From positions 1 to 46,535 of the forward strand of contig QHTD01000064.1 of the NCBI GenBank assembly GCA_003220675.1: a DNA stretch of 46,535 nucleotides, given 5' to 3'. The notes beneath the pieces were generated by a model. That model was not told the DNA's origin. It was given only the letters and a program-made list of their open reading frames with translations, and did not search any database. The translations under genes and the position numbers were made by a program. Origin of the DNA: Candidatus Rokuibacteriota bacterium. GTDB lineage: Bacteria; Methylomirabilota; Methylomirabilia; Rokubacteriales; CSP1-6. Within the stretch, counting starts at the first letter, position 1; every line of letters begins with the position of its first letter. Of this stretch, positions 2,593-10,852 are shown one piece after another.

Positions 2593-3306
2593 TCATGCCT
2601 TCGCGGAGCGAAGGCGCCGGTCGATCAGGAGCAGGACCACGAGCAGGTAGGTCACGCCGCCCACGAGGCCGCCGATCACGTCACTCAGCCAGTGCACTTT
2701 CAGGTAGATCCGGCTCGCGGCGACGCCGAGCACGAGCAGGCACGCGAGCAGCGTGCCGAGCCAGCGGAGGGCGCGAGAGACGTCGCTCGTCCAGAGCACG
2801 TAGACGACGGCGCCGAAGAAGATCACGGCGCCCAGGGCGTGACCGCTGGGGAAGCCGTAGTCCCCCCCGCGCGGACGGGGACGCGATACGAGCCACTTGG
2901 TCAGGACATCGAGCAGGAAGCCGCCGGCGACGGTCGCGGGCACGAAGCGCGCCAGCGGATGGCCGAGGCGGCGGAGACCGAGCCAGCCGAGCGCGCTCAG
3001 CGCGGCCAGGATCCAGCCGGAGCCGAGGAGCGTGAGCGCGCGCATCGGCGACTCGAGGAGCGGATGGCCGAGGCGGCGGAGACCGAGCCAGCCAAGCGCG
3101 CTCAGCGCGGCCAGGACCCAGCCGGAGCCGAGGAGCGTGAGCGCGCGCATCGGCGACTCGAGGAGCGGATGGCGTGCACCCTGAACGAGCGCCTGCACCG
3201 TATAGTCCAGTGAGAAGATATGCTGCGCGCGGGCGAGCACGGCGAGGGCCAGGAATGAGAGCGCGGAGAGCACGGCGAGCAGCGTCACCGCTCTCGGGAG
3301 TTTCAC
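2593..3306 (-). CDS. Phosphatase PAP2 family membrane protein with internal 35-residue duplication
   Basis: A 237-residue integral membrane phosphatase of the PAP2 superfamily (lipid phosphate or undecaprenyl-pyrophosphate phosphatases). All three signature motifs are intact: K137-x6-R144-P145, PSGH at 153-156 (H156), and S198-R199-x5-H205-x3-D209. Residues 46-80 are repeated almost exactly as 81-115 (one V/I difference); each copy carries one hydrophobic helix (LTLLGSGW.LAALSALGWLGL) and a basic end (LRRLG). The duplication adds one apparent membrane segment before the catalytic motifs, which would invert the N-terminal part unless one copy stays out of the membrane. The start is GTG 3306, with a CATAAT hexamer 8 nt upstream. 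Divergent from the 2OG oxygenase gene across 16 bp. Confidence 0.9.
   Translation of the reverse strand: MKLPRAVTLLAVLSALSFLALAVLARAQHIFSLDYTVQALVQGARHPLLESPMRALTLLGSGWVLAALSALGWLGLRRLGHPLLESPMRALTLLGSGWILAALSALGWLGLRRLGHPLARFVPATVAGGFLLDVLTKWLVSRPRPRGGDYGFPSGHALGAVIFFGAVVYVLWTSDVSRALRWLGTLLACLLVLGVAASRIYLKVHWLSDVIGGLVGGVTYLLVVLLLIDRRLRSAKA
2957..3173. repeat. 105-bp tandem direct repeat inside the PAP2 gene
   Basis: Copy A is 2957-3061 and copy B is 3062-3166, followed by seven bases of a third copy (3167-3173). The period is exactly 105 bp (35 codons), so the reading frame is kept. I count two base differences: one is synonymous, the other changes Val to Ile. The near-identity points to a recent duplication, a strand-slippage product, or an assembly artefact. 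Confidence 0.95.
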
Positions 3307-3313
3307 CGCTCCC

Positions 3314-3320
3314 GATTATG
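3314..3320. promoter_or_regulatory. Candidate shared -10 region between divergent PAP2 and 2OG oxygenase genes
   Basis: The 16-bp gap between the divergent starts holds a single AT-rich island, GATTATG. On the minus strand it reads CATAAT (five of six consensus), 8 nt from the PAP2 GTG; on the plus strand it reads GATTAT close to the oxygenase ATG. This could be a two-way promoter giving leaderless or near-leaderless mRNAs. No -35 elements were recognised. Confidence 0.35.
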
Positions 3321-3322
3321 GC

Positions 3323-4042
3323 ATGAGTGTCGCCATGGACTTCAAGGCCCGGCTCGCGGCGCTCGACTGGCCGGCGATCGAGCAGTCGCTCTGGGAGCTC
3401 GGCTACGCGAAGACGCCGCCGGTGCTCACACCCGCCGAGTGCACCGAGCTGATCGCGCTCTACGCCGACGACCGCCGCTTCAGGAGCCGCGTGGAGATGG
3501 CACGTTACAAGTTCGGCGTGGGCGACTACCAGTACTTCGACGCGCCGCTGCCGCCGCTCGTCGAGGCGCTGCGCGTCCATGCCTACCCGCCCCTGGCGGC
3601 GATCGCAAACCGGTGGGAGGCCGCGCTGGGAACGGCGACGCGCCACCCGCCCGATCTTCCATCGCTCCTCGCCCTCTGCCGCCGCCGCGGCCAGACCAAG
3701 CCGACCCCGCTCCTCCTCCACTACGAGGCAGGCGGCTACAACTGTCTCCACCAGGACCTCTACGGCGACGTCGTCTTCCCCCTGCAGCTCACCGGCTTCC
3801 TCTCCCGCCGGGGTGTGGACTACACGGGCGGTGAGTTCTTGCTGGTCGAGGCGCGACCGCGCGCCCAGTCACGCGGCGAAGCCGTGGCGACCGAACAGGG
3901 CGAGATCGTCATTTTTACGACGCGCTACCGACCCGCGCGAGGCACGCGCGGCTACTACCGCGCCGTGATGCGCCACGGCGTGAGCCGCGTCCGCTCCGGC
4001 TCGCGCTACACCCTCGGCGTCATCTTCCACGACGCACAGTGA
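3323..4042 (+). CDS. 2-oxoglutarate/Fe(II) oxygenase
   Basis: A 239-residue protein with the double-stranded beta-helix motif of Fe(II)/2-oxoglutarate dioxygenases: H143-x-D145 (HQD, in CLHQDLYG), distal H218 (MRHGVSRV), and R228 (SRYTLGVIF) placed to bind the 2-oxoglutarate carboxylate. The stretch YTGGEFLLVE is typical of prolyl-4-hydroxylase-like members. The N-terminal 30 residues (DWPAIEQSLWELGYAK) match the family that modifies a protein or small molecule of unknown identity. ATG 3323 is taken as the start; ATG 3335 in the same frame is an alternative. It is a single gene that converges on the next metallo-hydrolase gene with a 33-bp gap. Confidence 0.85.
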   Translation: MSVAMDFKARLAALDWPAIEQSLWELGYAKTPPVLTPAECTELIALYADDRRFRSRVEMARYKFGVGDYQYFDAPLPPLVEALRVHAYPPLAAIANRWEAALGTATRHPPDLPSLLALCRRRGQTKPTPLLLHYEAGGYNCLHQDLYGDVVFPLQLTGFLSRRGVDYTGGEFLLVEARPRAQSRGEAVATEQGEIVIFTTRYRPARGTRGYYRAVMRHGVSRVRSGSRYTLGVIFHDAQ

Positions 4043-10058: not shown

Positions 10059-10820
10059 CTAGCGACGGGCGAGCAGATCGGCTGCGAGAACCTTCGAGCT
10101 CTTCGTGCGCGCGTTCCGGCTCGTCCGGAGGATCACGGCGCCGCGGAACCCCGCAGCCCCGAACTCCTGGAGGAAGGCCCCGCCTTCCCTGGCTCCCGCG
10201 ATTCAGGCGAACCAGTCGGCCTCGCTGAACCGGGTCGTTGGGGGCAGCGGCTCATGGAGGATCAATTCGGCGGCGAACACCGCCCCGCCCGGCCGCACGA
10301 CGCGCGCGAGCTCGCGGAAGATCTCGGCGCGCGCCGGGTTCAGGTTGAAGATGCCGTTGACGAGCGCCACGTCGATCGAGCCGTCGCTCACAGGCAACCG
10401 CTCCGCCTCGGCGCGGCACACGTCGAGGTTGCGCGCGCCCGCCTCGGCCACGGCGGCGTGCGCGCGGGCCAGCATCGCCTCGCTGAAGTCGACCCCGAGG
10501 ACGCGCCCCCGCGCGCCGACGCGGCCGGCCGCGATGAGCGCATCGAGCCCCGCACCGCAGCCGAGGTCGAGGACGCGGGCGCCGGCGGGAATCTCGGCGA
10601 CGACGGCGACGTTCGAGACTCCCGCGAAGGCCTCCACGGCGACGGAGGGGATCGAGTCGAGGAGCTCGAGAGGATAGCCGAGACTGGCTGCCAGCTCGCG
10701 GCCTACCGGGAACGGGTGCGCGCCGCCGGGCTGGCGCGCGGCGCTGGAGTAGGCGCTCCGAACGGCCTCGCACAGGCGGGCCTGCGCCTCTTCTGTCAGG
10801 AGCGCCCCATCGATGACCAT
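10059..10820 (-). CDS. ArsM-like SAM methyltransferase, candidate selenoprotein (in-frame TGA read as Sec206)
   Basis: A class I SAM-dependent methyltransferase. The SAM-binding motif I is VLDLGCGAGLD and the next acidic strand is VLGVDFSEAM. Read conventionally it ends at TGA 10205-10203 after EADWFA. The same frame continues for 47 codons to TAG 10061-10059 (IAGAREGGAF.., with the family-like AAGF turn). In ArsM-type enzymes the matching site is W-x-x-C-x-x-G-A, so TGA replaces the conserved Cys. A hairpin at bacterial SECIS distance follows. The other ArsM arsenite-ligand Cys (in SNC) is Gly here (VNGIFNL), so the substrate may not be arsenite. ATG 10820 has GGAGG 6 nt upstream and TATAAT at 10852-10847. 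The total is 253 residues if Sec is inserted. A single base error or true truncation is the alternative. Confidence 0.75.
10172..10205 (-). promoter_or_regulatory. Candidate bacterial SECIS hairpin after the in-frame TGA
   Basis: On the minus strand, the TGA (10205-10203) is followed 14 nt later by a perfect 7-bp stem, GGAAGGC (10188-10182) with GCCTTCC (10178-10172), and the loop GGG (10181-10179). The loop begins 21 nt after the TGA and starts with G. From memory, bacterial SECIS elements lie within the coding region just after the UGA, with a small apical loop holding a G among its first bases. A SelB-binding assay or structural comparison has not been made. Confidence 0.6.
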
Positions 10821-10846
10821 ACTGGCCCTCCAATTGGCGTCTCCTA

Positions 10847-10852
10847 TTATAC
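10847..10852 (-). promoter_or_regulatory. -10 element of the methyltransferase gene
   Basis: A perfect TATAAT on the minus strand, 26 nt before ATG 10820, leaving room for a short leader with GGAGG. It is the best -10 match seen in this GC-rich window. No convincing -35 was found. Confidence 0.55.

Follow-up and report, generated by a model that had tools for sequence, protein, structure and literature searches.

A minus-strand gene in the 46,535-nt stretch of Candidatus Rokuibacteriota DNA analysed here (the window) very probably encodes a selenocysteine (Sec)-dependent SAM methyltransferase of the ArsM superfamily, which may act on a selenium or other soft-element compound and probably does not follow the three-cysteine arsenite route. 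Many known selenoproteins have Cys homologues, and Sec is usually seen as an upgraded Cys. In the clade described here, which is widespread, Sec is practically fixed and is coupled to the loss of two partner cysteines.

Gene and encoded protein

The gene starts at ATG 10818-10820 and ends at TAG 10059-10061. Its frame reads ...SEADWFA-TGA(10203-10205)-IAGAREGGAFLQEFGAAGF...LLARR-TAG(10059-10061), with 47 codons from TGA to TAG. This bears out the preliminary description, which had the frame stopping at TGA after EADWFA and 47 same-frame codons following to TAG; all of its points on the sequence hold, and the minus strand was not mentioned there. The features of the locus are as follows.

10059..10820, minus strand: Sec methyltransferase CDS, 253 residues including predicted Sec206 (Pfam Methyltransf_31, 3.4e-23; AlphaFold model)
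10203..10205, minus strand: in-frame TGA, codon 206, predicted to be read as Sec (TGA in every clade row except one Gly)
10062..10202, minus strand: 47-codon tail after the UGA (last helix 213-223, last two strands 227-234 and 244-252)
10171..10189, minus strand: SECIS-type hairpin, 8-bp stem pairing 10182-10189 with 10171-10178, apical loop GGG 10179-10181, 21 nt after the UGA
10617..10619, minus strand: codon 68, Val, at the ArsM Cys72 position, where the GCGNP motif is GVSNV (CmArsM alignment, superfamily tables)
10353..10355, minus strand: codon 156, Gly, at the ArsM Cys174 position, where the SNC motif is VNG (CmArsM alignment, superfamily tables)
10827..10831, minus strand: GGAGG, ribosome-binding-like site before ATG 10820 (sequence inspection)
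10846-10851: TATAAT hexamer (sequence inspection)

Read through, the 253-residue product has matches to Pfam methyltransferase domains, among them Methyltransf_31, and its AlphaFold model has a mean pLDDT of 91.1 and a pTM of 0.90. The Pfam domain is accompanied by a Rossmann-type methyltransferase fold in the model and its PDB matches, and the product is assigned with high confidence, by homology and modelling, to the class I SAM methyltransferases. The nearest solved folds are ArsM/AS3MT, with TM-scores of about 0.6-0.7 by query length. The clade protein shares the class I fold and an aligned substrate-site position with canonical members (CmArsM 4fsd, CrArsM 5evj, and human AS3MT 8xt7), but it is shorter and lacks the ArsM C-terminal part.

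Probable selenocysteine at codon 206

UGA206 almost certainly specifies Sec, as judged by comparison of homologous sequences. About 85,000 species genomes were scanned for homologues, and the 80 loci obtained were aligned with loci from the class of the window. TGA is retained at codon 206 in approximately 60 homologues that span about nine phyla and share roughly 50-70% identity. A count of TGA, TGT, and TGC at this codon, suggested in the preliminary description, gave TGA in 61 aligned rows, well past what chance would give; these comprise 59 clade rows (one contig, L012/L102, is counted twice) and the outer relatives L014 and L015. The sole clade row without TGA, L139, has Gly (GGG), and Cys is found in no aligned clade member. 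The 14 rows with Cys are 13 distant SNC-type ArsM relatives and L153, which was rejected as a Cys form of the clade because its Cys appears only in an out-of-frame fragment. The TGA had been described as aligned with a conserved ArsM Cys; it does align with the last ArsM cysteine, but close homologues show no Cys there.

By record titles, carriers belong to Acidobacteria, Chloroflexi, Planctomycetota, Methylomirabilota, Nitrospirota-type, Actinobacteria-type, Gemmatimonadetes, and several proteobacterial/desulfobacterial lineages; all are drafts, and isolated occurrences, for example in a Nitrosomonas MAG, may reflect misbinning. Sampling 396 Acidobacteriota and 400 Chloroflexota genomes yielded eight clade matches, each with exactly one in-frame TGA; three of the genomes behind them were already in the homologue set. 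The clade forms a single branch in the tree (SH-aLRT 99). Its distribution is patchy: a full copy is missing from the three congeners of the window's genome, pointing to transfer or loss. No plasmid copy of the gene was found. In L139 (854-1612), the row with Gly at the Sec codon, the hairpin appears weaker by eye, and the genome has selA.

The probability that the TGA is an assembly error or marks a pseudogene, or that UGA is read as an ordinary amino acid, is negligible. Only draft genome quality speaks for an error, and both error and pseudogene are refuted by homologues that share the TGA across many phyla, in genomes independent of one another. Reassignment of UGA was rejected because TGA terminates the neighbouring genes.

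Sequence on both sides of the UGA is conserved at the protein level. Homologues were expected to continue past codon 206 if the Sec reading was right, and in 59 clade genes the tail is constrained as protein. Codon positions 1/2/3 differ at 0.26/0.22/0.61 after the TGA and 0.35/0.26/0.64 before it, and beyond the true stop the difference is flat (0.74/0.75/0.74). The next stop after the TGA lies 48 codons on in most of these genes and 46-55 codons on in all but two. Residues G209, A210, E219, G224, F225, N236, and R238 are invariant after the UGA in 43 aligned sequences. In the AlphaFold model the tail supplies the final helix and two strands of the methyltransferase fold, and termination at the UGA would leave the methyltransferase incomplete, without its last strands. 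This last fifth of the protein is missed by gene callers that treat the UGA as a stop.

It is very improbable that the TGA is a real stop, with a functional 205-residue protein and the tail as a relic or regulated extension. Because UGA ends neighbouring genes of the window as an ordinary stop, translation could terminate at codon 206, and a truncated product could arise at low selenium. However, the constraint on the tail in 59 genes across phyla, its invariant residues, its place in the modelled fold, and the SECIS-type hairpin all stand against a real stop. A relic tail was rejected on its protein-level constraint and place in the fold.

The hairpin after the UGA reads GGGAAGGC-GGG-GCCTTCCT, with its loop 21 nt from the UGA. 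The published bacterial SECIS (bSECIS) model (PMC13188914, Fig. 2) fits the window gene and 53 of the 59 clade genes overall. By sequence the hairpin is a candidate for such an element, sharing the loop distance, the 8-bp stem, and a GG or GU loop start; the loop begins with GG in 40 clade genes, GU in 15, and GA in 4. Taken by itself, the window hairpin has a folding energy that is ordinary for its GC-rich composition (z 0.42, single sequence), and a comparative synonymous-codon test was therefore used. On average 7.29 of 8 stem pairs are kept, versus 6.46 +/- 0.10 under synonymous-codon resampling (z ~8, an upper view because the resampling ignores the relatedness of the genes). Several stem pairs are altered on both sides (G-C to A-U, G-C to C-G). 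An Rfam scan of the window gave no match. The hairpin, directly after the UGA, is well supported as a putative signal directing Sec decoding.

UGA206 would be decoded by SelA, SelB, SelD, and tRNA-Sec under the direction of this hairpin. A search of the source genome for selA, selB, selC, and selD, proposed in the preliminary description, found selA, selB, and selD and the 3′ part of tRNA-Sec. The selA and selB genes are adjacent on contig C392 and selD lies on contig C120, all over cut-off; selD itself has an in-frame TGA. Of tRNA-Sec, the 3′-terminal 43 nt are present; they lie at the extreme end of C392 (L084, 1-43) and are identical to the 3′ end of the tRNA-Sec of a congener. In relatives tRNA-Sec sits ~1.4 kb before selA. 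Standard tRNA searches score it absent because C392 begins inside its gene: no tRNA-Sec was over cut-off in this genome, and the sub-threshold matches were Ser, Leu, Gly, Tyr, and other tRNAs. Across genomes, selA is over cut-off in 35 of 38 clade holders versus 250 of 396 evenly drawn Acidobacteriota (Fisher p 1e-4; the sets differ in phyla). The three clade genomes without selA over cut-off (G041, G049, and G052) are drafts, as is G350, a clade carrier in the Acidobacteriota sample that is not among the genomes listed with selA; missing selA is weak evidence in drafts. Together, the conserved TGA, protein-like tail, SECIS-type hairpin, and sel genes make Sec likelier than a nonsense mutation or chance, as originally argued.

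One selA gene is reported with an in-frame TGA of its own, which may be an error or a Sec codon, on contig C353 (463-1812) of G067, the Planctomycetota draft that holds L136.

Arsenic site and ArsM superfamily

In the CmArsM alignment, Cys72, Cys174, and Cys224 correspond to Val68, Gly156, and Sec206. The replacement of the SNC cysteine by Gly, already noted in the preliminary description, is thus Gly156, and both partner arsenic cysteines are gone across the aligned clade members. A published ArsM survey demanded at least three of four As-binding cysteines (PMC5552862), CmArsM 44, 72, 174, and 224. The window protein has Val, Gly, and Sec at the last three and falls short of that number; at most two could be kept, since the Cys44 position falls outside the aligned span. 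The protein scores 155.1 bits against the ArsM model NF008823, below the cut-off of 263. With both partner cysteines lost, arsenite cannot be held by three cysteines, and the sequence indicates that the enzyme is probably not a three-cysteine arsenite methyltransferase. The earlier suggestion of a substrate other than arsenite gains support, two of the three As-binding cysteines being gone clade-wide.

In ~190 superfamily rows, Sec accompanies partner-cysteine loss with one exception. These rows come from two tables that share six reference rows; the first is mostly this clade, and 19 Sec rows lie outside the clade. Cys-Cys-Cys occupies the As site in about 89 rows (74 and 17 in the two tables). 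A hydrophobic residue and Gly/Ala occupy the partner positions in all covered Sec rows except L274, and no hydrophobic-Gly-Cys form was found in the tables. This pattern suggests that Sec usually marks a different site and not an upgraded ArsM. The tree is compatible with one or two origins of the hydrophobic-Gly/Ala-Sec pattern.

The exception, L274 (Desulfobulbia G136, contig C69, 23804-24301), is the only Cys-Cys-Sec homologue seen, keeping both partner cysteines with TGA at the third position.

We regard as improbable an arsenite methyltransferase made faster by a Cys-to-Sec replacement, the reading under which related NCBIfam selenoproteins are annotated. In its favour, ArsM supplies the nearest models and structures, the literature lists a Sec-ArsM (PMC13188914), and L274 has a true Cys-to-Sec form. 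Against this stand the missing partner cysteines of aligned clade members, the low arsM score, the cysteine number used in the published survey, and the window itself, in which no arsenic genes were seen beside the Sec methyltransferase.

Known relatives

The preliminary description knew of no described Sec version of this group, which is wrong as worded. A 2026 review (PMC13188914) lists both a UxxG-type Sec arsenite methyltransferase (WP_011987699; Fomenko et al. 2007) and, in NCBIfam, three ArsM-like selenoprotein families with fused domains (Haft and Tolstoy 2025). Like WP_011987699, the clade has a UxxG Sec in an ArsM-superfamily protein; in the clade this Sec is placed at the third As-site cysteine, both partner cysteines are missing, and no Cys counterpart was found.

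The three fused families are also the best NCBIfam matches (1e-54 to 2.5e-46) and share with the clade an ArsM-like domain with UxxG. All score far below cut-off: NF041537 (ArsM/AhpD) at 185.7 versus 510 bits, NF047649 (methyltransferase/UXPK-star) at 170.8 versus 460 bits, and NF041536 (ArsM/DUF2284) at 158 versus 575 bits. The protein thus falls outside these families. It has one Sec only and no fused C-terminal AhpD, UXPK-star, or DUF2284 domain, and the model matches stop at residue 230-237 of 253. No model in NCBIfam of June 2026 matches the clade protein over cut-off. Searching the literature for a methyltransferase of this kind in Acidobacteria gave no result. For one Methylomirabilota MAG, 63 predicted selenoprotein genes have been reported (PMC13188914).

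What looks new is a clade that lies below all such model cut-offs, is essentially always Sec, and has Val68 and Gly156 in place of the partner cysteines. The clade looks undescribed and chemically distinct, although Haft and Tolstoy 2025 may mention it. If this reading is right, the name "arsenite methyltransferase" may be wrong for a number of selenoproteins, and the capabilities of a single selenolate in a methyltransferase can be tested directly in this group.

Gene neighbourhood and proposed role

Immediate neighbours vary between loci. A LysR gene lies directly upstream on the opposite strand in 7 of ~57 loci (raw count). The top model for all seven is NF040786, a selenium-metabolism LysR, at 166-248 bits, below its cut-off of 250. 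A selenium-linked LysR subfamily has been described (PMC5322559). Phosphonate-type binding proteins with top model TIGR04553 (putative selenate transport) are encoded in L109, L124, and L147, three of ~57 loci (raw count), and are over cut-off in two. Within the window, no selenium gene lies beside the Sec methyltransferase. The neighbours favour a role in selenium or soft-element metabolism, on raw counts from a minority of loci.

By homology and modelling, Sec206 would be placed where Cys224 sits in the CmArsM arsenic site. Its lone selenolate may act as a nucleophile or soft ligand, holding a thiophilic substrate in position for the SAM methyl group. Because some loci adjoin selenium-type regulators and transporters, the likeliest substrate class would be a selenium compound, either selenide or a selenol, or failing that another soft element that already has its own ligands. 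A selenium compound in particular is proposed tentatively, as a substrate that is plausible yet short of probable. A broader proposal is somewhat more doubtful: that the Val-Gly-Sec group is a distinct ArsM-superfamily catalytic class, with one selenolate replacing a three-thiolate metalloid site, and that the clade methylates selenium itself. If so, a selenoprotein would control the homeostasis of its own element.

Sec206 could instead confer resistance by methylation of a different soft metal or metalloid (mercury, antimony, tellurium, or bismuth), which we consider unlikely. Cation-efflux, MerR-type, heavy-metal RND, and P-type ATPase genes adjoin the gene in several Acidobacteria loci (raw observations), but the metal genes differ from locus to locus and none recurs across phyla.

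A phosphorylase-superfamily gene lies ~15-41 bp from the Sec methyltransferase in L111, L115, L118, L121, L123, L133, and L140, mostly on the same strand and mostly in Acidobacteria; it perhaps serves the removal of S-adenosylhomocysteine. One Chloroflexi MAG (L127, 2965-4500) has a tandem of two different Sec ArsM-like genes, one of this clade and one of a GVGN/SNG type. The window's own genome has a second ArsM-like Val-Gly-Sec gene (L090, contig C253, ~2918-3418), which is apparently frame-shifted, its match splitting into two frames.
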